Origin: Quercus robur
Lineage: Eukaryota; Streptophyta; Magnoliopsida; Fagales; Fagaceae
Assembly (NCBI RefSeq): GCF_932294415.1
Contig: NC_065538.1
Location: forward strand, 52,426,343 to 52,490,342
DNA length: 64,000 nucleotides
Direction of reading: 5' to 3'
The notes beneath the pieces were generated by a model. That model saw only the letters and a program-made list of their open reading frames with translations. It did not search any database and had not been told where the DNA came from. The position numbers and the translations under genes are program-made. This document shows positions 3,713 to 56,621 of the stretch, piece after piece; position 1 is the stretch's first letter; each line of letters begins with the position of its first letter.

Positions 3713-6291
3713 CGTCTCCAACATTCGCTCTGGTTATGTTTAGTAGCTGATTTGTGGTATCGGGATTTAGTTTGTGTGTTTAGTTGTAGCTTGCGTTGCT
3801 AAAATGTTTCTGGGTTGAAGATTATATTTTATTTTATTTGTGTCATCTGCTGGTTGTGGCTTTATGGGCGTTACTCATAATCTTTTGTGTTGAATAAAAT
3901 TTGACTGCTTTTTTATATCAATGTTTGTCTAACTTTTGTTGTTTCAAAGTATGAAATCTATGTGAAGTATCATAGGAAAACACATGACTGATTTGAATGC
4001 CTAATGTAAGTTTGAAAAACCTGAAAGCTAAAGACTTTTTTTTTTTAATGAGGCTGTAACTTCAGATCACCCAATCCCTATGACAAAAGACCTGTCACTC
4101 CTATCCTATGTTTGTTAGCCTTTAGTTGAGCCAAACCTTGTTCTCTATTGCTCAAAAGCTTCTACTTTGTGGCCAGTTTGTACCAGAATACAGCCAAGGG
4201 AAGCCATTGCACCTACTGCTTGTTTACCTTTTTTTTAACCATCGACTTGGTCCCCAAGTTCCACTGCTGCACTACTACCAAAATTTTCAAGTGTAACCAG
4301 AAATCTGACTACCACAGTGATGCCTTATGAGATTTCCAGGGCCTTCTAAACCCTTGTTTCCTGAGAATTAACTGTTTCTGTTAAGTGAAATCACTGGTTT
4401 GAGGGCAGGGCTACCTATTAATGAGACGGAGAGCTCTAGCACTGCAGATGTACCATTGAATCCCCCTCCCACCAAAACACAAATAGTATCTGCAGTTATG
4501 ACTGATATAAATTTGACTAAGGTTCACTTTCTAAATAGCCAGGACACAACAAAGAGATATTGGTTGCATTTAACATTCTATACCAGTGAAAAAAATAGAT
4601 ATTATACAACCTTCAAAATTTAGGGTCATAGTAATACACATGGAGAGGAATATTGATCAGTAAATAGCAGATTTAGATTACGGAGATGAAGATTGTTATC
4701 AAATAGCAGATTCATATCCTGAAAAGGAGGCTGATGATGAGTTCTGCAGCTGGGTTCTCTGCAGATTTAGAGTGTAGTCTTTTGGATGGTTTTGGTAGAA
4801 AACTGAGGAACCAAGAGAGACCCATTTGATAAACAATGAGGTCTGACTGAACCCAATTAGGAGGAGATGAGTTTGTTTCGGCGGGAAGAGTTGAACCTCT
4901 GAAAGTGTAAACACCAAGGTTCCTGGAAATGGCATGAACCCACTATAAATAAGAACCCTCTCCTTGTTTTGTGATAAATAATAATAGGCTCCTGTAGTTA
5001 AAGTTTATAATGCTGGTTTTAGGCTTTTTATAAGGAATCGAATCACTCTGGGTATAATCCTTGTACATATTTTCATTAATATTTGTTAGTATTTCTCTAG
5101 TATATTCCTGAGTGCGGTCATGTGGTTAATGAAAGGTTTTGAGAAGTTAGGTAAAGCTAGGACTGATGGACTAGCCACTGCTTGTTTGAGTTGTTCAAAG
5201 GCTTCTTGAGTCTTGGCATCACAATGGAAAGAATCTTTTTTTAACAGGACAGTTAAATGTTGTGCTATCAATCCATAATTCTTAATGAATTTTCTATAAT
5301 ATCCTGTTAATTCAAGAAAACCCCTTAATGCTTCAACAGATTTTGGGGCAGGCCATTGCTGAATAGCAGTAGTTATTTGGGATCAGCCTTTGCTCCTTGG
5401 CCTGTGATGATATTACCTAAGTATTCCACCTCACTACTTAATTACTAATGTAATAGCTTGCCCTAAACACTTCCATTTAGGCAGCATCCATATTAACTTG
5501 AGTACTTTCCAGAGTATGTAAAAGTTCTGTTGTTGTTTGTTGGGAACCAAAGTTTTTAAATCTGGCTATTATCTAGAGTTTCTGCTGAATTAATTTTGAC
5601 TTTTCAAAAAATTGTGTCTCTATGGTTTTTCACAATTTTGTGCCCTATATATATATATATATATATATCCTGATGCAGTTATCTTAATAAATGCTGATTA
5701 TGAAGCAGAGAATATCCCAAACTTCATCTCTAGTTATGTTGTTAGCATTCCAAATTTAGCAGTGACGAGCTTCATGTGAATGGTGCTGGTAATGTCCATG
5801 TGGTCATAATTTCTTTGAGGCATCTCTGCTTCACATGCAGTGTGCTTCTTTGTAAAAAAACTTATTTTGTTTTTGCTAATACATCACTTGAAACTTAATT
5901 GGCATTAGATTTTGGTGTGTGATTCTGAATCTGTTTAAGTTTAACTTCTTTTAAAATTTAAACTAGTGTAAGGACATGTCTCATACTCCATGGGCAATCA
6001 GTAGGAAAAGGGGGACAGTATTCCAATAGATAGCAAAACAAAAGGGTATAAGTGGGGTTATTGTGATTAATTATGAACTTTCATTTGATCTGTACTGATA
6101 GGAACATAGTTACATAGCACGCAAATTGTTTGTTGGAAAAATCATATTTAGTCACCCTTAGAACTTGAATATCATGCATTACATCAATCATAATTACTTG
6201 TTGTATAGGGCTTTGATATAGTGTGTCTTTTCCTTTTTACCTAAATCCAATTTAATAGTTTCAATGTGTTGGTTTTGAAATTTTTTTGCAG
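3713..6291 (+). other. Probable 5'-UTR intron of the MCTP gene
   Basis: The sequence is T-rich and lacks convincing open frames. It ends in a polypyrimidine tract and acceptor, TTTTTTTGCAG (6281-6291), only 8 nt before the MCTP ATG at 6300. The likely donor is near 3702-3712. A decayed gypsy reverse-transcriptase fragment (5086-5560, minus strand) and a TA microsatellite (about 5649-5668) lie inside. Short frames at 4148-4330, 4399-4623 and 4699-4935 have no recognisable similarity. The intron call is inferred from splice signals only. Confidence 0.45.
5086..5560 (-). pseudogene. Decayed Ty3/gypsy RT-RNase H fragment
   Basis: On the minus strand a 61-codon frame (5271-5086) matches the junction between reverse transcriptase and RNase H of plant gypsy elements: AFEQLKQAV, then VLALPNFSKPF. 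Upstream, after frameshifts, are GYYRKFIKNYG and VEYLGNIITGQGAKADP, which correspond to the usual GYYRRFI and EYLGHIIS blocks. No LTRs or ends are visible, and frameshifts and stops show that it is a fossil. It lies in the probable 5'-UTR intron of the MCTP gene. Confidence 0.75.
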
Positions 6292-6299
6292 TTCTAACT

Positions 6300-8480
6300 A
6301 TGGAGGATTTTGCTATAAAGGAGACCACCCCCAACATTCCTGCCGCGAATGGTTCCATGCTGCCTGGAACTGCATTGGATATAGTCGAACAAATGGACTT
6401 TTTGTTTGTCAAGGTTTTCAATGCAAGAGGTTTTATAGCATTTGATGGTCCATACATTGCTAATCCTCAAGTGGTGGTGAATCCCTATGTGGTAGTGAAG
6501 GTTGGGAGATACAAGGTTGCCACCAAATATCTCAAGTCAAGCTTAGACTGTGCTGAAACTTTTGCCTTCAAGGAAGAACAAATTAACAGTGATGAAGAAA
6601 TTGAGATCCTTCTGAAGGATGGGGCTGCCATCACCATTGGGAAATTTTCTTTGTTGATCTCCGATGCTATTCGGCGGGATTCAGTTGGTACTTCATATGC
6701 ACCTTGTTGGTATGTGTTAAAGGATAGAAACAATAGGAATACAAATATGGAGGTTAATCTAACCTACTGGATGGGGACTCAAGCCGATGCAGAATTTGCT
6801 AGTTCTTGGCATTCGGATTCAGCTGTTGATATGTGTTGCATTCCTTTTACCCGTTCAAGACAATACCATTCACCAATTCTTTGTTATCTTAGAGTTAGTG
6901 TGAATGAAGCAGTGCTTAGAGGTAACAATGGGAATGGCGCAAAAATTTATGTGAAGGCCACACTTGGAGATGTCGCCAAGAAAACTAAGGTGTCAAATAA
7001 GGTGAATCCTAAGTGGGATGAGATTATTCTATTTGTTGTGGCTGAGCCCTTGGATGGATCATTAGTTTTGACAGTAAAGGTGCAACCTAATGGGGAGAGA
7101 AGTGTAATTATTGGGAGGTGCACAGTTCCCCTAGAAAATGTGCAGAAGAGAGAGGATGACACACCTATTGTTAGTGATTGGTATAATCTTGTGGGGCCTG
7201 AAGGAATGGTTGGGAAGTTTCATATGGGGATCTCCTTGGAGGGTGGATGTCACGTTTTTGATGAGTCGATCCATTACAGCAGTGATTTCAGGCCAACTGC
7301 AAATTCAGGGATACCTAGTATTGGGGTTTTACATTTGGGAATCTTGAATGCGGCTGGTTTGCGGGTAATGAAGCTGATAGAGAATCGAACAGATGCTTAT
7401 TGTGTGGCTAAATACGGGTCAAGGTGGGTGCGTACAAGGACGATTCTTGACAGTGTTGCTCCACAGTGGAATGAGCAATTTAGTTGGCTTGTCTATGAAC
7501 TATATACTGTCCTTTGCATTGCAGTGTTTGATAATTGTCACTTGCATGGAGGACCTGAGGCACTTCATCAACAGATTGGGAAGATAAGGATTCGGCTATC
7601 TACCTTGGAAGTGAATCATGTTTATACATTTTCTTATCCACTTGCAGTCACACGATATTCTAAGGTAAAGAAGATGGGTGAAATTCAGTTGGCAGTGAGG
7701 CTTTCTTCTTCTACATCTCTTATTAATAGGCTTCGTACATATTCACAACCCTTACTTCCCAAGATGCAGTGCTCTAGTACGTTGTCTGAATTCAAGCTAG
7801 ATAAATTGAAGAATGAAGCAGCTTCTTTGATTGTGTTGAGCTTGACCCGTGATGAGCCACCATTAAGAAAAGAGGTCATTAGCTATATGCTAGATGTCAG
7901 TGTAGAAACATGGAGCCTACAAAAAGCCATAGCCAATTATGATAGGGTCAGAATGGTTGTCATCAGTTTTCTTGATTGGTTTGAGAATATACGCAATTGG
8001 AGATTTACAATGATTTTTGTTTATGCCAGTCTGCTACTTGCGATTCTCTTTCCAAATATGCTATTACCTATCATATTTTTAGGCCTTGTTGGGGCTTGGC
8101 TTTGGCGATACAGAAAGAGGCCAAGACTTCCTCCTGATGTGCATATCAAATTGACTGGCATAGTTATTAACAGTAGATACGATCAACTGAGGGTCATTGG
8201 GAGGATGCAGACAGCTCTTGGTGAATTGGCAACTCTAGGGGAAAGGGTGGAGTCTTTGTTGAGCTGGCGGGATGGTCTAGGTTCATCCGTGTTTTTTGTG
8301 GTGTTTGTATTCTTATGTGTGGCTGCATTTTGCATAACATATGCCATTGGTTGCCGGTGGTTTATGGTCTTTCTTATGGTGCTTCTTGTGGTAAGGCTCC
8401 CAATACACCGTATTATTTCCATTTCATATCTGAAGAACTTTTTGGATAGGATGCCTACAAGAACCGATAGCATGTTTTGA
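6300..8480 (+). CDS. Multiple C2 domain and transmembrane region protein (MCTP/FTIP family)
   Basis: The product has 726 residues in one exon. The order is a short N-terminus with the family's LVEQM-like motif (DIVEQM, residues 27-32), then C2 domains at about 33-150, 193-312 and 342-470. A C-terminal phosphoribosyltransferase-C-type region (about 565-726) carries two hydrophobic segments (about 569-598 and 661-698). Family signatures visible are YWMGTQAD, DESIHYSSD, DAYCVAKYG, FDNCHLHGG, QPLLPKM, EPPLRKEV, YDQLR and LLSWRD, ending in RTDSMF. Plant MCTPs sit at the ER and plasmodesmata as membrane tethers; members such as FTIP1 and QUIRKY affect mobile-signal movement. The protein is shorter than the usual ~770-800 residues, mainly because the linker between the hydrophobic segments is reduced. 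C2-1 and C2-2 lack most acidic calcium ligands, while C2-3 keeps more. The start is supported by the acceptor 8 nt upstream. The particular family member cannot be assigned. Confidence 0.95.
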   Translation: MEDFAIKETTPNIPAANGSMLPGTALDIVEQMDFLFVKVFNARGFIAFDGPYIANPQVVVNPYVVVKVGRYKVATKYLKSSLDCAETFAFKEEQINSDEEIEILLKDGAAITIGKFSLLISDAIRRDSVGTSYAPCWYVLKDRNNRNTNMEVNLTYWMGTQADAEFASSWHSDSAVDMCCIPFTRSRQYHSPILCYLRVSVNEAVLRGNNGNGAKIYVKATLGDVAKKTKVSNKVNPKWDEIILFVVAEPLDGSLVLTVKVQPNGERSVIIGRCTVPLENVQKREDDTPIVSDWYNLVGPEGMVGKFHMGISLEGGCHVFDESIHYSSDFRPTANSGIPSIGVLHLGILNAAGLRVMKLIENRTDAYCVAKYGSRWVRTRTILDSVAPQWNEQFSWLVYELYTVLCIAVFDNCHLHGGPEALHQQIGKIRIRLSTLEVNHVYTFSYPLAVTRYSKVKKMGEIQLAVRLSSSTSLINRLRTYSQPLLPKMQCSSTLSEFKLDKLKNEAASLIVLSLTRDEPPLRKEVISYMLDVSVETWSLQKAIANYDRVRMVVISFLDWFENIRNWRFTMIFVYASLLLAILFPNMLLPIIFLGLVGAWLWRYRKRPRLPPDVHIKLTGIVINSRYDQLRVIGRMQTALGELATLGERVESLLSWRDGLGSSVFFVVFVFLCVAAFCITYAIGCRWFMVFLMVLLVVRLPIHRIISISYLKNFLDRMPTRTDSMF

Positions 8481-17002: not shown

Positions 17003-17211
17003 ACATTTGTTTTTTGCAAGACCAAGATTTAATTCATCAGAATTGCACAAAAATTTTCAAAGCTCAGGGATCTTGAGAAATGCTTGATTTGCTACTATGA
17101 AATCTTACTAAAAAAATGATCTGAAGCTGGGCTTTAAATAATACCAATAGAAACATATTAACCATGTCATAAAAGGATCTTAAGTAAAAGAACCAATTTA
17201 AAACAGGAGAT

Positions 17212-18290
17212 ACTTTGGGCCCAAAGATCCAAAATTTCTTGGCTGAAACATGGTGACAAAAATACAAAATTTTTCCATTCCGAAGCATCACAACGAAGAC
17301 GGCGAAATCACATACAGGGTGTCACATATTTTGATGAAAATTGGGTGGAAGATGTGGAAGATATAGCTGGGGTGGCAGCCAATTATTTTGAGAACTTGTT
17401 TAAGGCAGGTACATGTCATCAGATTGATGATTGTCTCAATGCGGTGACCCACAAGGTGACTCCAGACATGCAACAGTTCTTGTCCAGTGATTTTACTGCA
17501 AAAGAGATCAAGGCAGGGTTGTTCCAAATGGGACCAACATAGGCACCTAGACCTGATGGTATGAATGCACTTTTTTACCAAAAATTCTGGCATGTAGTGG
17601 GTGATAATGTAGTTACTGCTGTGTTGGATTATTTGGTATTATGGTATATGATATTAATCATACTAATATTGCACTGATTCCTAAAGTAAAATCACCTGAG
17701 AAAATGTCTGATTTCCGGCCTATCAGATTATGTAATGTCATTTATAAAATTCAAAAGTGTTGGCTAACAGGTTGAAACAAATTCTTCCAAATATTATCTC
17801 CCCCACCCAGAGTGATTTTGTCCCAGGGCATCTCATCATTGATAATGTGCTAGTGACTTATGAGACTTTGCATACTATGCTTTCTCGGAAAAAAGGCAGA
17901 AAAGGATCACTTGCTTTGAAACTTGACATCAGTAAGGCATATGATCGGGTTGAATGGCCTTTCTTACAAGGCATAATGTCTAAGTTGGGTTTTCCAGAAA
18001 AATTGATTGGTTGGGTGATGGGATGTGTAACCATGCCTTCATTCTCTATTCTCATTAATGGGAACCGTATGGCAACATCCAGCTAACTCAAGGTATTCGA
18101 CAAGGTGATTCACTTTCACCATACATGTTCCTTTTGTGTGCGGAGGGAGTTACTCCATTATTAGCAAAGGCGAAACTGGAGGGTAGCATTAAGGGGGTCT
18201 GTATATGCAAAAGGGCGCCAAAAATCTCAAATCTAATGTTTGCTGATGACTCATTGCTCTTTTGCCGAGCCACACATAGAGAGATTGTGT
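17212..18290 (+). pseudogene. LINE reverse transcriptase, broken
   Basis: Pieces in shifting frames give the plant L1 order: KHGDKNTKFFH, then 17345-17542 (VAANYFENLF...KEIKAGLFQM). Next, 17757-18086 carries [24 protein letters not shown] and LKLDISKAYDRVEW. GIRQGDSLSPYMFLLCAEG and the catalytic FADD box (about 18238-18250, LMFADDSLLF) follow. Stops after 17542 and 18086 and small indels rule out a functional enzyme. It is the usual RT of plant L1 elements and resembles, but is not identical to, the LINE at 53.3 kb. Confidence 0.88.
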
Positions 18291-19829
18291 GATTAATGAG
18301 ATCTTGCAAACATATGCAAATGCATCTGGCCAATGTATTAACATGGAAAAATCATTGGTACACTTCAGTAGCAACACCCAAGACAAACAAAAAGCAAAGA
18401 TTGTGTCATCCTTGGGTGTGAAAGGGGTGGAGTTGTTTGAATCGTGTTTGGGACTACATACTTTGGTTGGATAGGCTAAATACCAAACTTTTTCTTTTTT
18501 AAAAGATCGAGTTTGGAAGAAATTACAATGATGAAAGGCAGGATGTTATCCAGGGCAGGGAAGGAAGTGCTGATAAAGGTAGTGGCCCAATAAATTCGCA
18601 CTTACACGATGAGGGTGTTTCAATTGCCTCTAAAATTGTGTGAGGAACTTAATGCATTATGTGTGAAATTTTGGTGGGATCAAGTTGGAAATGAAAGGAA
18701 GATACATTGGAAGAGTTGAGATAGGTTATCTCGGCCAAAGAATGAAAGGAAGATACACAATGGAGGTATGGGTTTCAGGACTTGAGATTGTTCAATCTTG
18801 TCATGCTAGACAAGCAAGGTTGAAGGATGTTGCATGACCAGGACTCACTTCTTTTCAAATGCTTCAAATCTAGACATTTTCCTCGACGCCACTTTCTAAA
18901 TGTGGTTGAATCACCCAATAACTCTTATGTGTGGAGAAGCATTATGTCAGCTATGCCAATTCTAAAGAGTGGATGCTATTGGTGAGTAGGGAATGGTGAA
19001 TCCATCAAAGTCCTTACGCATAAATGGATTCCAAATTATCTGACAATTAAAATACTACATCCAGCACCTGAGGTTGGGGAAGGGTGGATAGTCTCGGATC
19101 TCATTGATTTGGACTTACACTCGTGGAGAAGAGACATCATCATGACAAGCTTCAAAAGGGTTGATGCTGATGCAATCTGCAGAGTGCCTTTAAGCTGTAG
19201 ATATGATGCAGATGCAATTGTATGGTTGCACAATAAAAATGGTGATTATTCAGTCTGATCAAGATAACATGTAGCAAGAAAGGTATTGAGAATGAGAAGT
19301 GGGCCGAATGTTCCAGAGGTCCTAGGAGGCAGCAGATATGGAAAGCACTATGGAAGTTACAGGTGCCCAGTAAAATGAAGGTGTTTGGTTGGAGAGCATG
19401 CCATGATATATTGCCAAATCGTGCAAACGTTGCCAAAAGAAGAATCATTTTGGATAGCAACTGTCACTGCTACAAACGTCTCCTGAAACTGCAATACATG
19501 TGATATGGGGCTGTGTTGCTGCACAGGGTGTGGACAGGATGCTCCACTGCTTTGCAAAAATGCTCAACTAACCAGCTTGATTTTATGCAACTGTTTGAGT
19601 TCTTATTGGACAAGTTATCTGTTGATGAGCTTGAGCTTTTTCTTTTTCAAGCATGGACCATTTGAAATCAAAGAAACCAAGACGTGCATGGGGGACAGAT
19701 GAAGGATCCATGATGGCTGAATAGACAAGTAAGGGAATACTTGGAGGAGTACAAGAAGGCTCAGGAACATCTTGCAGTACCAAATGCAATGCCTATCAGA
19801 AGCATGTGGCAACCTCCACCACCAGAATC

Positions 19830-20308
19830 ACCAGACATGTACAAGCTGAACTTCGATGCAACTGTATTTTTTGTACCTGAACTGCTCTGGTTTTGGGGCA
19901 ATTATCTGAAATGCTGCTGGGGAGATAATGGCTGACATGTCTGTTAAGGGACCCTACGTGAATAATAGTGAAGAAGCTGAAGTTTTGGCATGCCAAAAAG
20001 CTATAGAATTCTCTATTAAAGCTGGTTTTTCAGAGTTAATGATTGAGGGTGACAATGCTAATGTGATGAGGGCAATCTCAAGTCCATTAGCTAATAAATC
20101 TTTGTTGGGACATGTATATGAAGACATTCGTAGCTATTTTGATGGTCTGCACTCGGCTTCCATTAGCTGGGTTAGAAGGGGGGGAAATATGATAGCACAT
20201 TTATTAGCTCAATATGCTAGGAACATCTCTGATGAAATGTATTAGTTGGAGGACTCACCACCACCTGCTGTGGCTACATTGGACCAAGATTCTTTACATC
20301 TTAATGAA
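19830..20308 (+). pseudogene. LINE C-terminal RNase H, broken
   Basis: The first catalytic block, KLNFDAT, lies near 19846-19866. After a frameshift 19928-20245 gives NSEEAEVLACQKA (Glu block), IEGDNANVM (Asp block) and the end WVRRGGNMIAHLLAQYA. The final peptide resembles the EDSPPPA...LDSL tails of many plant LINEs. Two breaks lie between the first and second blocks. The A-rich 3' end of the element follows. Confidence 0.85.
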
Positions 20309-21058
20309 TAAATGAGTTCTTCACTTTCAAAAAAATTTTAAAAAAAACCACGTCAAAGAGCTTGGTTAGAGAATGCTTCTTACAAAAGTTAGGGGATTCA
20401 AATGCTTGCTTTTTCCAAGAATGTCATTTCCAGAAAATGAATATTGGCTTTGAACTAAAGCAATTCTTCTCCTTTTTTTTTTTTTTTTTTGAGTCGCCTT
20501 CTCCTATCGGTAATGGATGGAGACATTGATTATATATAAACAAGAAGTTAAGCCACACAACAACAATAATTGAATGGGATAATAAAGTCCTCCCACGGAA
20601 TATTTATTTTCCAACTTAACTATTATAATTAAGTTCATTCCACAGTACTAGAGGACCATTTCACAAACCGAACATTAGGTAAAACAAAAATACTTACAAA
20701 GATTATCCAAGGATATACTTCTGAGACTTTCTGCAGTCTTTAAAAGGCGAATCTTCCCTGTAGGGTGAAACCAAATAATAAGGACTTCCATGTTACTATC
20801 TAATATCAAAGAGGATATATGAACAAGTACCATATACAACCCAAAGACACTCTTAAGCTTCAACTTCCTTTTTTTTTTTTTTTTGTGTGTGTGTGTGCAT
20901 GTGTTGGCCTCTTAAATGGAATCAATTATTGAAACATAAGGTTGTTCCATGATTATATTGTATTCACCATTTTGGTGTTGCTGCATCAACACTTCACACC
21001 TCTGTGGGAAACTGAAATTCAATTTTGTGTCCTTGTTATATGTATCTGACATCCCCTT

Positions 21059-22270
21059 GCAATTCAAACTATAAAAGATTTTCCCATTAAGAAGACTTCA
21101 CCTAACATTCTTGCCACAAATGGTACCATGCAACTTACAAATGCATTTTACCATCAAATATTTTATAGGTTGGTTCTAAAACATATAGTCAAACTTGGAA
21201 ACCACCAAGTTCCTTGACAAAAAGTCAAGTTTATAGTGAAATGAAACTTCTGCTTTTAAGTAAGAATAATGTAAAAATTAGGACTCACTCTCTAAATAGA
21301 AACTATGCTTTTATTGATTATCAATGAATGAATGTACATTTACTTCTAATCCTTTCCTTATATACAAGCTGAAGCTAAAACAGAAAAACTAACTGATTCC
21401 CTATTTCCAGGGAAGTTTGTTACAATCAAGAATCTACCTAAACATGTGTGCATTAATCAAATCGTAGAACTAATCATCTAATCGTAGTGTGGAATTGATT
21501 TTATCAAGTCCTCTATAACTTCATGACTCAATCTTGTTATAACTTCCTTTTGAGTCTTTTCCTGATGATGCAACGCAAGCTATGGTGCACTGAATTGCAG
21601 CTGTCCTTGATGCTGAGGTGCACTCTCTGTTGCACCTGATTGTACCCTGCCCTGATGATGAGGTGGACTCAGTGCTGCACCTGATGGTAGCCTGTCCTGA
21701 TGACTAGTGCATGCCATGCGCTTTGTACTCTGCTGCTGCTGAGGTTGGCTTGTACTTTTATCAAATAAATATATTCAAAGTGATCAAGTGGAGATTATTT
21801 TAAAGAAAGAACATGCAATAACTATTGATAAAGTTTTAATTATTGATCTGAATAGGAATAATAAGAATATTAAAATAGAGTTAAAATTGGCTTATTGGAT
21901 GGGTACACATGCAAATGCAGTGCGCGTTTTCAGTGCTTGGCATTTGAATTCAGAAGCTATTAATTGGCACTGCATTGCTTTTACAGGTTATGAATAATAC
22001 CATTCACCTACTCTATATTACCTTTGAGTTAATGTGATTGGCCAAGTTTTGGTCCTTAGAAGTACCAATGCAAAAGACCAATACATTTATGTGAAGACTA
22101 CATTTAGACTTGTGGCTAAGAAGACTAAGGTATCACTAATAACAATGTGAATCCTAATTGAAATGATAATATTGTGTTTGTTGTGGCCGAACTTTTTAGG
22201 GATCTTTAGTTGAGGTGCAACCTAATAAGGAGGGAAGTTTGATTTGGGAGGACACTTTTCTCTGCATTAG
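21059..22270 (+). pseudogene. MCTP pseudogene fragment, plus strand (copy 1)
   Basis: Alignment by eye to the intact gene starts just before its ATG ('gca(g/a)ttct/caaacta' next to 'agattttcc', 21059-21085). It runs through the C2-1/C2-2 region to the parent position near 7130. The longest frame (21788-21997) carries KLAYWMGTHANA and SAWHLNSEAINWHCIAFT, matching parent YWMGTQAD and SSWHSDSAVDMCCIPFT. Many stops and small indels, a lost ATG and a 494-bp solo LTR insertion (21270-21763) make it non-coding. It abuts a second MCTP fragment in the opposite orientation at about 22270. Confidence 0.85.
21270..21763 (-). mobile_element. Solo LTR, probably Ty1/copia, minus strand
   Basis: The 494-bp insert begins TG and ends CA and is flanked by perfect 5-bp duplications AATAA (21265-21269 and 21764-21768). 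The paralogous pseudogene has the empty site with one AATAA at 45533-45537. On the minus strand it starts TGATAAAAGTACAAGCC and has a TATATAAGG box (21356-21364). An AATAAAAGC poly(A)-type signal follows, and the end is ...TTTTTACA. There is no internal domain, so it is a solo LTR left by recombination. The copia assignment rests on size and layout only. Confidence 0.9.
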
Positions 22271-22790
22271 ATTGCACCCCATTCTTCAATGGGTGATCCC
22301 TCAAAAGTTTCTGCCACAACAAATATGATATTCTCATCTCACAAAGGAGTCACATTTTACTGGGCAATATCATAGCCTTTGGTCTAAACGTAGCCTTAGC
22401 ATAAACTTTTGAGTCTAAATACCAAATTCTGAATTTCAATCACATGAACTCTAAGGTACCAAAGAGTACATGATTGATATTGTTCTAACACCTTAAAGCA
22501 ATACAAACCCTATCAATAGGTCCTAGATTTGAATGCCCAGAAAATGGCTCTTCTACATGTGGCCCTATCCAAAAACCCAACTTTAAATCCATTTTATAAT
22601 ATACTTCTTATTCTTGTCTTTTAAAACTTTACCAATCACGTTATTAGTTACAACCACCCTATACTAGAAAAATCTCCAACTCTGTGTTATCACTTTGGAT
22701 ATGTTCTTGCTTAAAAGAAAAAAAAAAAGTTTAATTCCATTCTAGGCAACTTAGGACCAACAAACTCCCACATAACATCTGGAGTTCAAA
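22271..22790 (-). pseudogene. MCTP pseudogene fragment, minus strand (copy 1)
   Basis: Read on the minus strand, this has the MCTP order. It contains a block like the parent's EEQINSD (here QEHIQSDN...LEIFL), VLKDKNKK, KLGFWIGP (parent NLTYWMGT), then TLWYLRVHVIEIQNLVF at about 22470-22420. VYAKATF and a block matching the parent's VVAEPLDGS follow. Frameshifts and stops are frequent. The LWYLRVxVIE block fits the general MCTP consensus better than the intact gene's LCYLRVSVNEA, so the source was another paralogue. It meets the plus-strand fragment tail to tail at about 22270. Confidence 0.78.
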
Positions 22791-23177
22791 ATCTTAATAA
22801 ACAAAAACTACACGAAATAAAATGCATGTGTAGAGTACCTAGTACCGTTTGTGGGAATGATTCTAGGCAAAATCTACTTACTATAAAAATCTTTCATTAT
22901 TTTAACTTTGAACTATAAGACAGTGTTTAAAGTTCTAAACAACAATATAGATGTACTGCCCATTGAAACTATCCATCAAAATGGATTTAATGGGAAAAAG
23001 ACACACTAGCCTTTATTCTAAAGGTGTAGTAAATTCTAGAAAAATTATGTAAGAGGATTTTCCTTTTTAGACTAGACTTTTATATGGTTCAAAAATACCC
23101 ATAAACCTTACCTTTAACGAGAAAAAAACTACTCCATAAAGCCTCATCGCACGCACTTTGAGTGTGTGATAAGGCTA

Positions 23178-25130
23178 GTTGTATGCTAAGAGTTTTTAGC
23201 TTCTTCATAAAGTAATTTTTATATCATTTTTTTTTTTTATATATAGCCTTTTTGGTGGGTTCCACAGGTTGGAACTCTACCTCTAAAAACAAAAAAACAA
23301 CCAATTTTCTCTCAACAAAAATTAGTTAATCAATAAGGAATAATTTTGGCTTCACACATGTTTCAAGTTATTTTGGTCCAACCTATTATGTGATGACTAA
23401 AGAGATCATTCCTATGTAATTTTAGTCACATGAATGTTTTAATAATTCATGTAACTTATTACAAATAAAACACATGAATAATCTCATAAATCTCCACCTA
23501 GTAAACTTTGTACATTTAATAGAATACCATTAATTGGTTCTCAGCCTCTAATTAGGCTCATAATTTGTATCCAATGACTCATTAATGCAAGCCTCAATCC
23601 TTAAAAATATGCCAAGATCACGAGAGATCAAACAACAAATTTAAGTTTCTAAAAAAAAAAAACAGCAGATTTAAGTATGATTTCCAATGGAAAATTGGTA
23701 CTAAGTAATTCCATTTGATGTTTCTTTTATTGAGTATACCATTAATTATCACGTATATAAATTGACAAAGGAGTTTTATTGATTTTTATAAATTATGTAT
23801 ACTGTTTTTATTTGGGTCTTATTACTTCGTCATATTTGGTCCTTTAATTTTAGTAGATTATACTTGTGATTTATTTGAAGATCAAGTTAATTTTTTAAAA
23901 ATAATGAGCATATCAATTTTTTTATGATTTATTTAAGTCCATGTGTCATGGTTCCTTAAGTGCACTGGGCAAATCAAGTTTCAATCCACTATAGAGGTTA
24001 TTGCTAAAACCACCCCATGAACCCTAAAGACCCCGTATAAAAAGCTCACTTTCTCTGACCCAAAGCAAACCACTCCCCGTGAAATCCACCAATATCACAA
24101 GGCTCACACCAAAACTTGGACCTAAGCCCTTCCCTTTTTGGTTTTCAACTTCCAACATCCCTCATTTTCTACAGCCAAAAACCCCCAAAAATCAATCTCT
24201 CATTTTCTACACCTACCCTAAACTAACACAAGCTCTTTTCCTAAACAATCAACTATCTCCTCAAAGCACCAAAACAGCCACTCAATACCTTTAAACTCTT
24301 AAAGACACAAACCCATAGCTACTCAAAGCCCCAAAACACCACATTAACACCTTCAAACTCTCAAAGAAACAAACCCAACAACCCCAAAAGTAAACCCAGA
24401 GAAACCAAAGAAAAACAAAGCTAGAGGACCAAGAAATCCCTCCTTTTTCATATATGCCAAAAACCTTCAACAACCATTCTCAACAACAACAGCAACTACA
24501 AACACAAAACAGCAACAACCTTCCACCACAACTAGACCAATCCTCCAAAACTCTAGAAATAGAACCCAAAACCACAACAACAAACACTAAAGCACTCTCC
24601 TTTCTTTCACAAACCTTAAGCTATAGAAAAATCCTACCATATTCATATATACAAGACCCTAAACAATCGTTCTCAACAATAGCCAATAACAACAACAAAC
24701 AACAGTCACAAGAAACTTCACCAAGCCAAAATAACCAACAAGCAAAGACAATCACAAGCAACATCAAAGGCAGCAACTTCAACTGAAAAAAGAGAAAAGA
24801 GGATAGAGCATTGCAGAGACCACCCAATAATTTTTTCTCACTCTATTCTTACTCTCATTTTTCTTTTCTTTTCCAATTTTTGTTCAAGTCTAACCAAAAG
24901 TTTGTTCCTTTTTCAACTATCAACAGAGTAGATAAACAGAGCATCTTAAACAGCTAAAGAAACAAAGGGTAATGAACAAGAAAACAAGGGAGGTAACACT
25001 CAACCTTTTCCATAGCATTTTACTTTCAATCTGTGCAATGCTTCCTAACCTCTACATGTTCAAATACCTAGATTTGTACACACATACATATCATATTTAT
25101 TGTTTATTCACAAAAGCATGCATTTTTTTA
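23178..25130 (-). repeat. Inverted copy of the 26.7-30.6 kb segment (left arm)
   Basis: This segment is the reverse complement of sequence at about 26690-30600 and of 48240-51735. It is absent from the same place in copy 2. An insertion of about 2.1 kb (23052-25130) is flanked by a 31-bp direct repeat beginning AAGGTGTAGTAAATTCTAG (23021-23051 and 25131-25161). The first ~125 bp of the insert has no match in the arms. The arm lacks the about 1.55-kb insert carried by both other copies (28607-30157), so it was not simply copied from its present neighbour. It holds a TATA-like box, TATAAAAA (24036-24043), followed by a leader-like region and a Gln/Asn-rich frame (24454-24786) not preserved in the right arm. 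Confidence 0.85.
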
Positions 25131-25699
25131 AAGGTGTAGTAAATTCTAGAAAAATTATCTAAACAAAATAGTACTGTAATAACCAAATGGAATTATACAA
25201 ACACAAACAAAATCGTAGTGTAATAACCAAAGGAATTATACAAATACACGGTCTATAGTATTGCTAATCTATTCTAGAATGACATGTATAATCTATCCTA
25301 GGATGGCATGTGAAAAATGATAATTTACCATAGGATGACATGTGAATAATGAATAGCATGTAAAATCTATTATAGGATGACGTGTAAGCAATTTATTTTT
25401 AAAAGGCAAGACCAAAAGGGCATAGTTGAACATGTGATCGCATGACATTTACTATGAAAGTAAATTGCATAGGGAATTAAGTAAAACTTACTTCACTCCA
25501 TAGCATAGCATACCAAATGCAATTTTGCAATTCTTTTTCCCAAAGTATTTTACTTCATGCAAAAGGACCCAAGGAAATAACAAGAACACAAAGGTTAAAT
25601 TCCTACAAGGTGTGAAAACAAAACCATTTAACGATTTTCTTATTTTTTAAGGAATTATTTTTAGCAAAATAAGGATTGAAAATGAATTTTTGTGACCTC

Positions 25700-25960
25700 A
25701 AGGGCCTTTGTGCATTTTTGGGAAATTTTAGGGCTTAAAATGTAATTTTGGAAGAAAAAAAGGGTCAAAAACATAATTTTGTAAGAGTTGGAGGTTATAA
25801 ATATAAATTGAAAAGGTTTGGGATTGAAAACATAATTTTGAAAAAGATGGAGGGTTAAAATGTAATCTTGGAAAGTGTTGGGCTCAAAATTGGTGAAAGC
25901 TTAAAGGCCAAAACATGATTTTTGTGAAAATTTAGGGTGGAAGTGTAATTTCAGGTTGGG
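25700..25960 (+). repeat. Degenerate ~40-bp tandem repeats
   Basis: There are about six imperfect units built on 'aaaatgtaattttgg' with 'ggtt/agggtt' between them. The same array is present in copy 2 at about 47270-47520. It contains no coding potential. Confidence 0.6.
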
Positions 25961-26396
25961 CTTAGGATTGAGAGTGAGTTTAATTGCACTTGGGCTAAAG
26001 GCTTTTATTTAAATGGAGCTCCTAATTTTAGTTGGGCTTTGTGTGTAGGTTTGGTGGAGTTTGGGCTACTGTAGCTAAAGGGGATAAGGCTTTGAGTGTG
26101 TGTTGGATTTCAGTTGGGCCTAAGAGATTAAGTCTATTTTGTACACACGCAAATTGGGCTTTGATTCACAAATTGATCCAATCCTTACCTTAACTAAAAT
26201 CCTCCCCACCAATCACAACCTAGAAAATCTCCAATGGCCAATGAAATTAAGCCACCTAACCTAGATTTATCTCCCTAATCTCTTTATTTCTATTTCTATT
26301 TCTATTTTAGAACCCATCAGATTAAAATCCTAATCTCTTTCTCACAGTCTCATCAGTCATCGCCAACTCTCTTCCTCTCTTCACAGCAGAGCCTCC

Positions 26397-26567
26397 ATGG
26401 CCATGGCTGAAGCTTCTTGGCTGGACCTCCATGCCACCACCTTAAGCCACATGAACTACCAACGTGGTGTCTTTCTCCCTCTCCATTTCAAAGTGGGTTT
26501 CTCTATGGGTGTGAATTTGTGTATGTGCATTGAATTTGGGGCCTCGGGGTTTATTCAAAATGGGTAA
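26397..26567 (+). other. Small open frame of 56 codons, doubtful coding
   Basis: The frame starts MAMAEASWLDLHA in a good plant start context after a CT-rich leader-like stretch. Copy 2 has the same frame extended to 84 codons (47947-48201), with a few substitutions and a different end. I recognise no family. Conservation may simply reflect recent duplication. It could be a fragment of a gene or of a transposon leader. Confidence 0.2.
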
Positions 26568-26620
26568 TTTTTGTGTGTTTGGTTTAGGATTTTGGGGTTT
26601 CGGGTTTGCTTTGGCCATGT

Positions 26621-27560
26621 TGGTATGCTTGTGGGCTCCATGGTGTAGCTGTATGTGCCTTGTGTCTATGTATGTGAATGAAAGTGAGCTTTTGTGTTAA
26701 AAAAAATGCATGCTTGTGTGAATAAATAATAAATTTGATATGTATGTGTGAACAAATCTAGATATTTGAACATGTAGAGGTTAGGAAGCATTGCACAGAT
26801 TGAACGTAAAATGCTATGAAAAAGGTTAAGTGTTACCTCCCTTGTTTTCTTGTTCATTACCCTTTGTTTCTTTAGTTGTCTAAGATGCTCTGTTTTTGTG
26901 CTCTGTTGATAGTTGAAAAATGAACAAACTTTTGGTTAGACTTTGAACTAAAATTGGAAAAGAAAGAAAAATGAGTGTAAGAATAGAGTTAGAAAAAATT
27001 ATTGGGTGCTCTCTACAATAGTCAATCCTCTTCTCTTTTTTCTGGTTGAAGTTGTTACCTTTGATGCTGCTTGTGATTGTCTTTGCTTGTTGGTATGCTT
27101 GTGGGCTCTATGGTGTAGCCGTGTGTGTCTTGTGTCTATATATGTGAATGAAAGTGAGCTTTTGTGTTAAAAAGAAATGCATGCTTGTGTGAATAAATAA
27201 TAAATTTGATATGTGTGAACAAATCTAGATATTTGAACATGTAGAGGTTAGGAAGCATTGCACAGATTGAACGTAAAATGCTATGAAAAAGGTTAAGTGT
27301 TACCTCCCTTGTTTTTTTGTTCATTACCCTTTGTTTCTTTAGCTGTCTAAGATGCTCTGTTTTTGTGCTCTGTTGATAGCTGAAAAATGAACAAACTTTT
27401 GGTTAGACTTTGAACTAAAATTGGAAAAGAAAGAAAAATGAGTGTAAGAATAGAGTTAGAAAAAATTATTGGGTGCTCTCTACAATAGTCTATCCTCTTC
27501 TCTTTTTTCTGGTTGAAGTTGTTGCCTTTGATGCTGCTTGTGATTGTCTTTGCTTGTTGA
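26621..27560 (+). repeat. 470-bp tandem duplication
   Basis: Units 26621-27090 and 27091-27560 both begin 'tggtatgcttgtgggctc' and are nearly identical. Copy 2 has a single unit (from about 48172). Each unit includes a minus-strand frame starting MNKKTREVTLNLF (26857-26666 and 27324-27136). That frame also occurs at 48409-48191 and, on the plus strand, near 24972. The repetition comes from the duplications and is not evidence for a gene. Confidence 0.92.
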
Positions 27561-30500
27561 TTATTTTTGCTTGTTGAACTTTCTTGTGATTGTTGTTTGT
27601 TGTTGTTATTGGCTACTGTTGACTGCTGTTTAGGGTCTCGTATATACGAACAAGGTAGGATTTTTCTGTAGCTTAGGGTTTGTGAAAGAAAGGAGATTGC
27701 TTTTAGTGTTTGTTGTTGTGGTTTTGGGTTTTGTTTCTGGAGTTTTGGAGGGTTGGTCTAGGTGGAAGGATGTTGCGGTTTTGTGTTTGTAGTTGCCATT
27801 GTTGTTGGTTGTTGTTGAGAATGGTTGTTGAAGGTTTCTGGCATATACAAAAAATGAGGGATTTTTTTTGGTCCCCTGCCTTTGTTTTTCTTTGGTTTCT
27901 CTGGGTTTACTTCTGGGGTTGTTTGGTTTGTTTCTTTGAGAGTTTAAAGGTATTGAGTGGTTGTTTTGGTGCTTTGAGAAGATAGCTAATTGTTTGGGAA
28001 AAGAGATTGTGTTAGTCTAGAGTAGGTGTACAAAATGAGAGATTGATTTTTAGGGTTTTTGAAGTAGAAAATGAGGGAGTTGGAAGTTGAAGACCAAAAG
28101 GTGAAGGGCTAAGGTATTTTGGTGTGAGCCGTGTGATATTGGTGGATTTCAACCGTGGGAGTGGTTTGCTCTAGGTAGGAGAAACTAGAAAGTGAGCCTT
28201 TTATACAGGGTCTTTAGGGTTTGAGGGGTGGTTTCGGCAATAGGACCATTACCTCTACAGTGGATTAAAACTTCATCGGCCTAGTGCACTTTTAAGGAAC
28301 CATGACATTTGGACTTAAATAAATCACAATAAAATTTGACATGCTCATTAATTAAAAAAATTACTTTGATCTCCAAATAAATCATATGTATAATCTGCTA
28401 AAATTAAAGGACCAAATATGACGAATTAATAAGAACCAAATAAAAACAAGATACGTAATTTATAAAAATCAATTAAACTCCTTTATCAATTTATAAAAAT
28501 CAATTAAACTCCTTTATTAATTTATATACATGATAATTAATGGGATGCTCACTAAAAGAGACATCAAATGGAATTACTTAGCACCAATTTTCCATTAGAA
28601 ATCAAACTAAAATTTTAAGAATTATTGATAAAAAGCATTATAGATAATTTCCTTAATTAAGTAATATCGCACTTAATTCAAACTTAATCTTCACGCTATG
28701 CGCAATCAAATTACATGGAAGTTCATGGTTTTAAATATAGTACCAAAATTTATCCAATTACATGGTTAGATTTTAATTAAAATTCAATTAAATTTAATTA
28801 GCCTCATAAAAATGGATAAAAATCAATAACAAAAAACAAGGTTTAACTATTAAAACAATAAAATCCTTCAATTTAAAGCCAAAAAAAAAAAAATTCAAAA
28901 TTTAGAACTGGAAAAAATATGATATCAACCGTGGGAGTAAAAAACAATCAACAACTTTTCGTTGAGGTTCTAATAAAATCTACGCAACTAATTTCTAGAA
29001 TGAGGGAAATGATCTACAATGGGAAGTCTAAGCAACAAATTATAGATGAAAAGTGAGCGAATCAAACATATATAAGTGCATGGGAATGAAACTCCCTAAA
29101 TACGTGGGGTAAATTCTATAACTGAAAACCCTCAAAGCTATCTCTCTATATTCTTTTTCTCTCTCTTGTTCTTGTCTAAACTTTTTTCTCTCTAATTTTC
29201 CCAACCTCCCTCTCTCTTGCTCCCCTCCTCCTTTTATAGCCATTTTCCCCTCTTCCCTATTTTTCTAGCCGGTTTGCCCCCAACCGGATTTAGGGGATAC
29301 TTGTCTCATCCATCCTCTACTCTGTCACCTTTTGATCATGAAGGAGGACTTTTGGGAATATTTCTACTGTTTAGGCCAGTCATTTAACATTGAATGTGGC
29401 TAACATTAGATGAGGGGCCTCATTAATGCAAAGGTGATTGCTACATTGGTTCCCGTGTCCTCTTTGTTATGTCTCTTGTGGTAAGTTTGAATAAAGGGGA
29501 CACCTCATTTAGAAGGAAACTAGTTGTGGCACCTTCATTACTTCGGGAAAAGGGTTCTACATGTCACCTCAGTAATTGACCTTGGGGAAGGAAGTCGTTA
29601 CAAATTTCCACGATGGTAGGCCTAGATGGCTTCTTTCTACTTAGTAGGCTATTTTATTTACCGCCATACTCCTTGGGCCGAGCTTGCAGTCATCCCCCAC
29701 TTCAACAATTACCAAATCAACTACTACAAGCTTAAGAACCAATAAGAAAAAGAATCTAATAAAGAAGAAAAATTACCAATACTGGCTTGCTTGGTGTATT
29801 TGTCACACAAGGCAACACAATAATACTTAATGTGATTATGTGGAATGGTCATGTTTATAATGTTTATCATATTGATGAATTTTGACTTTTATATAATGAT
29901 TTTTATAAGCCTATTTAGACTTCACGTATATTTATCTTTAAATTATGGGTAATGCTAGAAATACAAACTTTTTTACAAAATTTTTTATAAACTACTGATA
30001 TGATATGTGGTTATTATTTAATGATAAAATGATATTAATAGTGGGGTTAGATGAAAACCAATAAGAAGTTGGCCACACTAATACTTTGTAAAAATATTGT
30101 AAAATAATTTGTGATTGTAGCATTACTCTTAAATTATAGGAACCGATATCATGATTCACATTAAATTTGTTGTTTTTTTTTTTTTTTTAAGAAACTTAAA
30201 ATTGTTGTTTGATCTCTCATGATCTTGGCATATTTTTAAGGATTGAAGAAAGTTTACTATGTGGAGATTTATGAGTATATTCAGGTGTTTTATTTTAAAT
30301 AAGTTACACAAATCATTAAAACATTTATGTGACTAAAATTACACATGAATGATCTCTTCAGTCATCACATAATAAGTTGGAGCAAGATAACTTGAAACAT
30401 GTGTGAAGCCAAAATTATTCCTTATTGATTAACTAATTTTTGTTGAGACAAAACTAGTTTTTTTTTTTTTTTTTTGAGGTAGATTTTCAACCTATGGAAC

Positions 30501-30600
30501 CCATCAAAAAAGCTATATGGAAATCAAAAAATAAATAAATAAACAAATAAACAAATAATATAAAAATTACTTTATGGAGACTCTTAGCATACAATATGCT
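26690..30600 (+). repeat. Right arm of the inverted repeat
   Basis: This pairs with 23178-25130 in opposite orientation across a spacer of about 1.56 kb. It contains most of the 470-bp tandem duplication and a 1.55-kb insert not found in the left arm. Read on the minus strand it has a TATA-like box near 28200 and leader-like sequence. Its Gln/Asn-rich frame is broken early here. If transcribed through, the two arms could form a long imperfect hairpin. Confidence 0.85.
28607..30157 (-). mobile_element. Insert of about 1.55 kb, possibly an old LTR
   Basis: The insert is bounded by comparison with the left inverted arm, which lacks it. The same insert is present in copy 2. On the minus strand it has a TATA box (TATAAAAGG, complement at 29230-29238) followed by an AG-rich leader (about 29040-29220). 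That layout fits an LTR or retroelement leader. I found no clean TG...CA ends and no target duplication, so the class is uncertain. The minus-strand frame at 29243-29040 is low-complexity Arg/Glu and not a convincing gene. Confidence 0.4.
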
Positions 30601-32341
30601 ACTTCTTTTCAAAGGACCAAATTATCATTTACTCATACCCAATACCACCAATTAAATCACATTCCATATTATTACCATATGCCATTGACACAATACCATA
30701 CTATATCACAAACATAGACACAATCTTTACTGTTATTTCTACTGAGACCACACATACATCCTCAAGATGAACCACAATACCCATAAAAAAAAATAAAAAA
30801 TAAAAAAAGATGAACCACAGTTAGTTAACGTGTGTGGACATTGTCACATGATGCCTTTCAAAAGGGTTTTGGGAAAGAAGATTGTTTTGAAAGTTTGTCT
30901 TGAAAATCATAAATTTTTTAAAAAAATGTGAGGAGTCATAACTTATTTTTAATTTTTTGAAAGGAAAAAACAAAGTAAGAAATAAAAACAATTTTTATTT
31001 AGAAAATAACACAATGATTAAAATGGTCTAGGACAAGTTTGAGGGATAGATTCCATGGTGAGAAGGTGTGAGGCACCCACACACGTTAGGATTATCCACC
31101 GGTCTCGACTAAATAAGTAAAGGTTAGTAAATTGATCTAATTATTCAATAAGCACTAAATTGATCAAATTTATTTCATCAAAAAAGTGAGTAGTAAATGT
31201 TTTAGTATGGTAGCCTAAAACTAAATTGAGAAAAAATAGAAACAAAGCAATAATGAAATTAACCAGTGCGAGTAGTTAAAAGAAAATAAAATTTTTTACT
31301 AGAAGTATCTCTAAATAGTTATTTGGAGTTAGATTTATAAGTTATTTAGAACCAATATTTGGGCTTTAATCACTGTCACAAAAATAGCATGTGATTCAAA
31401 TTAGTTCGTGGGCCTAAAAAAGAAATCAAGGAGCAATTATTTCAAACAAAACCTATCGTACATAACTAGCCTAAACAGAACCCAACCCATTATCAAGCCA
31501 ATGGTGTAGAATAATAGTCTGTAGACTTCTGATACTCTCTCCCCACAACGCCAACGGTACCACTTGAAAGAGAGAGATGTGTTTTTTTTTTGTTTGACGC
31601 AGCAGGGCAACAGTTCACTGCAAATGTAACGGCAACAGTGCACGCCTCACAGTACAATGCTCATTTTTTTCATTATTTTTTTATCTTCTGTTTTTTTGGG
31701 AAATAATTATAAGCTCTTTTTTTTTTTTTTTTTTGAGAATGAGGAAATAATTATAAGCTGGCTCACTATAATTTTTTTTTTTTTTGGGGGTCAAGAAGTT
31801 AGGTAAAGTAATTTTTTCCCTCACCCTTGTGTTTGTGTTTGTTTCTTAAAAAAAAAAAACGTTTCAATCTACTTATTTTATTTATCTTTTAGCTTTTGTA
31901 CTTTTAAAGAAAAAAAAAACTTTTAGTAAAAAGGCATATAACTTGTTTCCAAGAGAACAAAAGAGTCAAACGTTCTTTTAAGAGGACAAGAAATAAAATG
32001 AAGATTTCTGCATATTTTTTGAAATTGAGAGTTTGATAAAAGTAGAGGTGAAGAAAGATTGAATGATAAAATAAAAATATGAATAAAAGTAAAATTAAAA
32101 GCAAAGTTAATACAATAAATAATAGATAGATTTAAGAGTTTATGAGCATAGTTCAATAAATTTATTATTGGGATGAGGCACATGTAAAATGATACGCATC
32201 ATAATTGAGGAATGAAATAACCAAATAGGGTTTGTACACCATGGTTTTTATTTATGCCACTGCTTGTGATTTCCATTTTGTTATTTGTAAAATGCAATGT
32301 TAGTTATTTTATAAAACAAGTTGTCAAATTTCATAACCAAA

Positions 32342-36872: not shown

Positions 36873-38186
36873 TTATCTCTTAGGTACAAGGATGTCGAAG
36901 TCACTACCAGTCCATTCAGCAACTTGATCTGGGTCTTTAAATATTTCAGTTCCCAAATCAACAGACATCCATTGCCTCCTAGCTGGAGGAGTACCAGGAT
37001 CCTGGAAATGAAGTTTTTATAACTATGGTTAGCATTTAATCCTCAAGAATTATAACCATATGGAGAATGTATGACATTCTACTATTATTCTGTTCTGTTC
37101 TTCACCTCTGTTTCCTCCAAAAGCAATTGGACCAATTAATATTTGATAACAATCTCTTCTATATATATATATGATAACAATCTAGCTAGTACCACTCAGA
37201 ACATTAGGAAAACTTTTGGAGCCAATTCATTAATGTGCATTTCTATCTACCTAAATGAATTTGCATAGGAGAAAAAAAAATACAAGTTATACAAATTTTT
37301 ATTTTTTAATTGCTCTAAAGTAATTTCTTCATTCCCTTGTATAAAAAAGGGGTAAAATACTATTTTAGCTTTTAAATTTTACTAAAAGTTTTTTTCACAT
37401 TCCTAAATTTTAAAATTTTTTTTTTTTATCCCTAAACTATTGAAAAGTTTGTCTTCATCCTAAACTAATAAAATGTTTTATTTATGTCATAAAACTTTTA
37501 TAAAAAATTTTCATCCCTAAACTATTGAAAAAGTTCTTTTTTTAACCACTATATTTGTCTCTAAACTATTGAAAAAACTACAAAGTTCATGAATGAAAAA
37601 AGAATTTAAAAAAAAAAAAAACAAACAAACAAACAAACTAACAAATGGGTGAACAAGGAGACAATCAAACCTGGTAAAAGAAAAGTGATTGTGACAACCT
37701 CCCAACATCAAGTTCCCATGTCCTTGGATCCCCAATCCAACCCTCCCCTTGCTTAGTAGGGTACCCATACTCACCCCAAACTGGGTGTGGCAAAATCTGC
37801 AATATCTCTTGAGGCTGAGGATTGCTATATGGATCACACAAACTGTAAGGTGCCTCAAGATGCTCTGCATTTCCTGGTGAGCAATGCAAGTGATAAGCTG
37901 CATAAGGAAAGTTGGTAGTATCATTTCGATGTATGCGTGTCCCATTAGGGAATGTGTAGTAAGGTGGGCATGCATTGAGGCTTTTTGCTTGGCACCATGC
38001 GCTTGCATTTGGATTTATGATCATTTCATTGTATCGAGTGACATCTGAAGTCACATCACCATCACATGGCTTGCCATTGTTCTTCCAACAACTTCCAATG
38101 TCTAATAGGTAGAATTGGCTACTTGGACCACCACCTTTAATCACATTCAAGGTGAACCTCACCTTAAAATTAGGTGATTCTGGAAT
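36873..38186 (-). CDS. Last two exons of a DUF7705-like gene (5' part not found)
   Basis: Exon 38186-37671 encodes IPESPNFK, then a conserved stretch with KGGGPSSQFYLLDIGSCWKN, PPYYTFPNGT, NDTTNFPYAAYHLHCSPGNA and GWIGDPRTWELDVG. Exon 37001-36873 adds DPGTPPARRQWMSVDLGTEI and ends FDILVPKR before TAA. Both junctions are phase 0, with an AG acceptor at each exon and a GT donor at 37670. The sequence resembles the C-terminus of a plant family of unknown function (DUF7705, from memory) with several conserved Cys and N-glycosylation sites, likely secreted or membrane-bound. Both exons are open, but I see no upstream exons before the hAT element at 39.5 kb. It may be a 3' remnant, or a gene with a distant 5' part. 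Confidence 0.7.
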
Positions 38187-42280: not shown

Positions 42281-43176
42281 ACATTTGTTTTTTGCAAGAC
42301 CAGGATTTAATTCACCAGAATTGCACAAAAATTTTCAAAGCTCAAGGGTCTGGAGAAGTGCTTGATCTATTACTATGAAATCTTACTAAAAAAAATTATT
42401 TGAAGTTGGGGTTTAAATAGTACCAACAAAACATATTAACCATGTCATAGAAGGATCCTAAGTAAAAGAACCAATTTAAAAACCACGTCAGAGAACTTGG
42501 TTACAGAATGCTTCTTGCAGAAGTTAGGGGCTTCAAATGATTGCTTTTTCCAAGAATGTCATTTCCAGAAAATGAATATTGGCTTTGAAAGTTTACCAAA
42601 AAAAGAATATTGGCTTTGAACTAAAGCAATTCTTCTCCTATTGGTAAGGGATGGAGACATTGATTACATATATAAACAAGAAGTTAAGCCACACAACAAT
42701 AATAATTGAATGGGAACTAATAAAGTCCTCCCACTGAATATTTATTTTCCAATTGAACTATTATAATTAAGTTCATTCCATAGTACTAGAGGACCATTTC
42801 ACAAACCGAACATTAGGTAAAACAAAAATACTTACAAAGATTATCCAATGATATACTGCTGAGACCTTCTGCAGTCTTTATTAGGCGAATCTTCCCTGTA
42901 GGGTGAAACCAAATAATGACTTCCACTGTCTAATATCAAAGAGAATATATGAACAAGTACCATATACAACCCAAGGACACTCTCAAGCTTCAACTTCCTT
43001 TTTCTCTCTTTGTGTGTGTGTGTGCATGTGTGCATGTGTTGGCCGCTTAAATGGAATCAATTATTGAAACATAAGGTTGTTCCCATGATTATGTTGTATT
43101 CACCATTTTGGTGTTGCTGCATCAACACTTCTCACCACTAGGAAATTGAAATTCAATTTTGTGTCCTTGTTATATG

Positions 43177-45296: not shown

Positions 45297-45314
45297 GTTA
45301 TATGTATCTGACAT

Positions 45315-46029
45315 TCCCTTGCAATTCAAACTATAAAAGATTTTCCTATTAAGGAGATTTCACCTAACATTCCTACCACAAATGGTATCGGTACCATGCA
45401 GCCTACAAATGCATTTTAACGTCAAATATTTTATAGGTTGGTACTAATACACTTAGTCAAACTTGGAAATCACCAAATTCCTTGACAAGAAGTCAAGTTT
45501 ATGGTGAAATGAAACTTCTACTTTTAAGCAAGAATAAATATATTCAAAGTGATCAAGTGGAGATTATTCTAAAGAAAGAACCTGCAATAACTATTGATAA
45601 AGTTTTAATTATTAATCTAAATAGGAATAATAAGGATATTAAAATAGAGTTAAAATCAGCTTATTGAATGGGAACACATGCAAATGCAATGCGGTGCTTG
45701 GCATTTGAATTCATAAGCTATTAATTGGCATTGCATTGCTTTTACAGGTTAAGAATAATACCATTCACCTACTCTATATTACCCTTGAGTTAATGTGATT
45801 GACCAGGTTTTGATCCTTAAAAGTACCAATGCAAACCCATACATTTATGTGAAGACTACATTTAGACTTGTGGCTAAGAAGACTAAGGAATCACTAATAA
45901 CAATCTGAATCCTAATTGAAATGATAATATTGTGTTTGTTGTGGCCGAACTTTTTAGGGATCTTTAGTTGAGGTGCAACCTAATGAGGAGGGAAGTTTGA
46001 TTTTGGGAGGACACTTTCCTCTCCATTTG
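45315..46029 (+). pseudogene. MCTP pseudogene fragment, plus strand (copy 2)
   Basis: This is the paralogue of 21059-22270 and carries the uninterrupted pre-insertion site of the solo LTR at 45533-45537. The frame 45482-45667 gives VEIILKKEPAITIDK, matching parent IEILLKDGAAITIG, then stops just before the YWMGT block. Further stops and frameshifts follow. It ends near the parent position 7130 and abuts the minus-strand fragment at about 46029. Confidence 0.85.
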
Positions 46030-48201: not shown

Positions 48202-48239
48202 CCGTGTGTGTCTTGTGTTCATGTATGTGAATGACAGTG

Positions 48240-56560: not shown

Positions 56561-56563
56561 TTT

Positions 56564-56582: not shown

Positions 56583-56621
56583 TGGGCAAAGAAGAAGGAA
56601 GAAGCAACCCCTTCACAGAGA

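Follow-up and report, generated by a model that had tools for sequence, protein, structure and literature searches.

The window analysed here, a stretch of 64,000 nucleotides from the oak Quercus robur, carries one complete gene of the MCTP family, whose members are described as membrane tethers at plasmodesmata (PMC6680132), together with two palindromic units made of decayed MCTP fragments. The complete gene has the following position.

6300-8480, plus strand, complete MCTP gene, a single open reading frame of 726 codons

Its product shows C2 and PRT_C domains above cut-off and belongs to the plant MCTP family, which bears out the preliminary description of an intact relative at this position. 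The second C2 domain scores 47.3 bits (codons 196-296) and the third 58.3 bits (codons 342-448); the first, at 16.8 bits, falls below the Pfam cut-off of 22. Among the best 120 of 2420 matches in a protein search, its closest relatives were found in Quercus rubra (94% identity) and Castanea dentata (93%), a Quercus robur protein was 91% identical over 89% of the query, and after these identity falls to 49%, for a Castanea sativa protein. Judged from its sequence, the frame is a strongly diverged member of the family, and very similar full-length proteins in two genera suggest that it is a retained gene. By eye, an acidic segment preceding the last membrane region is present in protein P0004 and absent from the 6300-8480 MCTP and from P0001-P0003.

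The two palindromes lie in two larger collinear blocks, A and B, and are made up as follows.

17003-32341, block A of the segmental duplication, collinear with B apart from private insertions
42281-53174, segmental-duplication block B, collinear with A
21057 to about 22995, palindrome of unit A, MCTP fragments tail to tail
21057-22251, plus strand, plus arm of unit A, a pseudogene covering about positions 1-819 of the coding sequence (CDS) and containing a 479-nt insertion
21270-21748, A-only insertion of 479 nt within the plus arm, not in B, carrying a 45-bp tandem repeat
22252-22995, minus strand, minus arm of unit A, a pseudogene running from about CDS position 806 to the start codon and then, judging by B, into gene-upstream flank
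45319 to about 46722, palindrome of unit B, MCTP fragments tail to tail
45319-46010, plus strand, plus arm of unit B, a pseudogene
46011-46722, minus strand, minus arm of unit B, a pseudogene whose upstream flank matches 6219-6266
43177-45296, insertion present in B only, its ends near-inverted and bordered by an 8-bp target duplication, GTTATATG, at 43169-43176 and 45297-45304, where A represents the empty site

The arms were searched by blastn with the CDS of the 6300-8480 gene, the gene itself being masked. Both plus arms were matched (21852-22251 in A, E 2e-43; 45621-46010 in B, E 4e-39), as were both minus arms (46285-46053 in B, E 1e-14; 22356-22252, E 3e-9, and 22542-22435, E 4e-7, in A) and also N-terminal pieces, so that in each unit a plus-strand fragment does run into a minus-strand one, as had been noticed before. 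Plain tblastn was weaker on the minus arms, giving E 9e-5 for minus B and, in a permissive run, single pieces only for minus A (E 0.45 and 2.3). In a frameshift-tolerant protein alignment the minus arms score 149-188, against at most 38 for 20 dinucleotide shuffles of each minus arm and at most 34 for the opposite strand; chance similarity is thereby ruled out, and the minus-strand segment passes as MCTP in a protein search.

The minus arms are longer than first described. In A, comparison of arm with arm extends the start-codon-proximal piece to 22905, and alignment with B sets the limit at about 22995; in B, gene-upstream sequence extends to 46722, not 46520. The flank of minus B matches a stretch 34-81 nt upstream of the gene ATG that could be 5'UTR, intron or promoter, and the presence of such gene-upstream DNA argues that at least minus B came from genomic DNA; a retrocopy (processed pseudogene) origin would be less likely for this arm. 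Plus and minus arms alike reach the start codon and end near codon 269-273. The arms had been thought to span the first and second C2 domains: the N-terminus and a degenerate first C2 are indeed present, and the second (codons 196-296) is covered over only about three quarters of its length. Stops and frameshifts occur in four of the four arms, which marks all of them as MCTP pseudogenes.

Self-comparison of the window revealed that the collinearity of A and B continues far past the palindromes, so that the palindrome was copied along with its surroundings and its presence twice in the window, already reported for the unit itself, follows from one collinear segmental duplication. Block A holds private insertions at 17204-20342, 21270-21748 and 23053-25204. 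The B-only insertion at 43177-45296 we take to be hAT-like from the length of its target duplication. Since there are several insertions and repeats around the units, one might suppose that a Pack-type mobile element captured the MCTP pieces and moved them. A-B homology, however, runs collinearly past the palindrome edges, and the one clear element found in a non-exhaustive scan of the edges, that at 43177-45296, adjoins the palindrome and is missing from A; capture of this kind is very improbable.

Five ENA/Logan proteins, all five of the candidates, match the plus-arm ORF of A with 85-94% identity. By residue type, P0123 and P0124 are A-type and P0125-P0127 are B-type, so both units seem to be present in other assemblies, and this suggests that the A/B duplication predates the lineages of those assemblies.

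Block A also contains a second inverted duplication: the A-only segment 23053-25204 is largely an inverted copy of 26697-30543 in the same block (23669-25129 against 28613-27171, 81%; 24734-25132 against 27094-26697, 92%). A 467-bp tandem duplication at 26618-27559 is about 96-97% identical. Short, related ORFs rich in Gln, Asn and Thr (24454-24786; 48674-48877, minus strand) are repeated across both blocks and orientations, and a Pfam search of the one at 24454-24783 returned no match.

The two steps, inversion and duplication, are well separated in age. The A and B palindromes are about 94-95% identical, plus and minus arms 67-77% depending on the alignment, and the arms and the 6300-8480 gene 64-72%. 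Over 363 trimmed columns, the K2P distance is 0.34-0.37 between arms and 0.05-0.06 between A and B. The high divergence between arms that had been suspected is thus substantiated by both identity and distance, and its excess over the A-B divergence indicates a palindrome several times older than its duplication. Beyond the palindrome the A-B distance is 0.08-0.11 in aligned blocks, with the exception of 88 aligned right-flank positions without any A-B difference. Across positions of intact codons, A-B differences are even (13/13/13 in the plus arm, 8/11/13 in the minus arm), with no codon-position bias.

We consider it probable that the locus represents a dead, duplicated inverted MCTP pair, a judgement that does not extend to how the arms came to be joined. 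Long ago, a local MCTP copy would have become a partial duplicate inverted tail to tail, whose two arms would then have decayed. The duplication of a block, today 11-15 kb long, would have followed much later and produced units A and B, which would have acquired different insertions. The units most likely lack present function, either as protein or as hairpin RNA. The general kind, an old inverted partial gene duplicate that was later copied, is already known; the palindrome offers a well-preserved record of an inverted gene duplication followed by a segmental one.

The palindrome itself may have been made by one foldback (snapback or template-switch) event within the second C2 domain. In gene coordinates, the plus arm ends at about CDS 819 and the minus arm at about 806, only 13 nt apart and both inside the second C2, and the few nucleotides by which the plus arm is longer, at the palindrome centre, still align to the gene. 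Such near-coincident truncation points favour a single foldback or template-switch event. They weigh against the idea that two neighbouring tail-to-tail MCTP paralogues were fused by a deletion that took both 3' parts, the arms being different old genes: if independent and uniform, truncations this close in a 2181-nt CDS would coincide in an estimated 1% or so of cases. A stop at codon 239 common to all four arms likewise speaks against fusion. It is one of eight changes shared by plus and minus arms among 20 strictly polarised shared changes, where plus and gene also share eight and minus and gene four; several of the plus-minus changes, the stop included, are G-to-A, a kind of change that recurs easily in plant DNA. 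Shared patterns on the trimmed columns are similarly divided (47 plus-minus, 47 plus-gene, 22 minus-gene).

Other observations fit better with fusion. The minus arm has evolved faster than the plus arm (47 against 22 changes in a relative-rate test, p 0.0035), which is unexpected if the arms were born together, and it keeps a Trp codon absent from both plus arm and gene. This Trp, at codon 195, is shared by all six outgroup proteins used, in agreement with the earlier remark that the minus arm is closer to the family consensus there. In AU tests of protein trees, all three placements were accepted, namely the arms as sisters (0.58), plus arm with gene (0.54) and minus arm with gene (0.26); a tree that joined the minus arm to P0004/P0005, the closest MCTPs after these, was rejected (p 3.5e-5). 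The arms belong to the neighbouring gene's own divergent sublineage, which supports the local tandem MCTP origin that had been proposed. Overlapping deletions of about 20 codons (near codons 117-140) have apparent breakpoints that differ between arms; they were consequently dropped as proof of a single origin and are compatible with fusion. On balance we regard fusion as doubtful, and prefer foldback by roughly two to one.

Foldback and template-switch inverted duplications have been described (PMC10766183, PMC4689423), and the oak palindrome resembles them in its short centre and nearly symmetric junction. It differs from them in that its arms are not demonstrably sisters, and a parental 10-bp inverted repeat with at least 8 matches, looked for in the present gene, was not found at the junction. 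The CDS has 34 such repeats, of which the nearest begins at position 819-821 and has its centre about 20 nt past the junction; a weaker junction match of about 7/10, seen by eye, was not counted.

A palindrome of this kind could in principle be transcribed, with hairpin siRNAs or miRNA-like products lowering MCTP mRNAs as at the soybean I locus, a possibility that had been raised for these units. For both strands the predicted structure is a foldback over almost the whole length, with energies of -308.1 kcal/mol in A (z -16.0) and -275.1 in B (z -12.9) for the plus strand, and -326.7 in A (z -14.2) and -311.2 in B (z -13.3) for the minus strand. MIRNA genes are recognised by a stable foldback and by a precisely processed 20-24-nt RNA; the predicted folds agree with the first of these and lend the silencing idea some support. 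Since any palindrome folds well, hairpin energy by itself was rejected as evidence of function. As a whole, the hairpin bears no mark of constraint on its pairing: A-B change is not reduced at arm-paired columns (34/604, against 11/250 unpaired, p 0.51), and the plus-strand hairpin has no excess of G·U-compatible differences (29 against 38 in A, p 0.33; 26 against 42 in B, p 0.07, with a tendency towards the minus strand). A search of the whole 64-kb window gave no Rfam match at the gathering threshold, though a match is not required of a new MIRNA, and the ORF across the B junction gave no candidate among 5.8 billion proteins.

Soybean offers the closest comparison. At its I locus, inverted CHS1-3-4 clusters (GmIRCHS) are described beside related functional genes in segmentally duplicated DNA (PMC6710647, PMC13051633), and the oak locus likewise has inverted copies near a related functional gene in segmentally duplicated DNA. 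The two soybean clusters are reported as 10.91-kb perfect inverted repeats, and the siRNAs acting on CHS7/8, the 82% similar targets, as bearing one or two mismatches (PMC3804491). In contrast to these near-identical arms, the oak arms are only 67-77% alike and resemble the gene at 64-72%, with a longest exact gene match of 13-15 nt. Alignments of 21 nt to the 6300-8480 gene with 3 mismatches number 16 for plus A, 9 for minus A, 13 for plus B and 12 for minus B; those with at most two mismatches, the range described for the soybean siRNAs, number seven, all overlapping and all from plus B with 2 mismatches. By analogy with the tolerance of soybean CHS, an siRNA effect on the 6300-8480 gene may occur despite the mismatches. 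Taken together, the low similarity to the gene, the short exact matches and the unconstrained hairpin go against a silencing role, which we judge very unlikely. Among the papers listed on MCTP and small RNA, none dealt with such a locus, judged by titles or abstract openings, and among those listed on Quercus with inverted, tandem and pseudogene topics, mostly about chloroplast genomes, no title concerned this locus.

One feature keeps the silencing reading, weak as it is, alive. Three tracts around the palindrome centre are concerned, given here in the coordinates of A.

22148-22226, plus strand, 5' tract of the inner stem, 79 nt, identical in A and B
22227-22269, plus strand, palindrome centre or loop, 4 of 43 positions different between A and B
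22270-22359, plus strand, 3' tract of the inner stem, 90 nt, identical in A and B

In the five aligned blocks, the two longest runs of A-B identity (90 and 79 nt) are these two tracts, which face each other across the centre. The inner stem has no A-B difference at 169 positions, compared with 65/1226 in the palindrome and right flank and 295/3573 in the other four blocks. A post hoc permutation that allows for symmetric placements gives p 0.0185, and the contrast of stem and loop, picked after the data were seen, p 0.0015. An identical stem with a diverged loop (0/169 against 4/43) counts against non-function, and since the loop differs, it is improbable that a single conversion tract spanned the centre. 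Further identity runs occur off the stem, of 78 nt in the right flank and of 64 and 67 nt in other blocks, so that patchy divergence by chance, or gene conversion, is also a reasonable explanation.

Should the stem be functional, the locus might be a hairpin small-RNA locus on the way from an inverted gene copy to a MIRNA gene, in which the inner stem (the part encoding the conserved FVVAE motif), retained in both units while most of the duplicate decayed, would yield antisense small RNAs tuning Fagaceae MCTP genes; we give this very little credence. Plant MIRNA genes that arose by inverted duplication, some of them pseudogene-related, have been described (PMC3237417), and the oak units share with them a foldback derived from a fragment of a protein-coding gene or pseudogene. 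They differ from such genes in that the inverted unit is 1.4-1.9 kb long, gives no sign of constraint save in the inner stem and is known from sequence alone. If the inner stem did yield small RNAs, the locus would stand halfway from inverted gene copy to small-RNA gene; the sister units A and B would provide a built-in comparison, and the targets would belong to a family of membrane tethers at plasmodesmata.

Elsewhere in the window, an LTR retrotransposon at 56349-62312 has long open frames for gag-protease, reverse transcriptase and integrase, with reverse transcriptase ahead of integrase, the domain order of Ty3-type elements. A reverse-transcriptase fragment at 53573-53974 is LINE-like by eye. 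Finally, the ORF at 37665-38162 (minus strand) matches the DUF7705 profile, which has 464 positions, from position 262 to 424 (E 2e-100) and may be a single exon of an uncharacterised plant gene.
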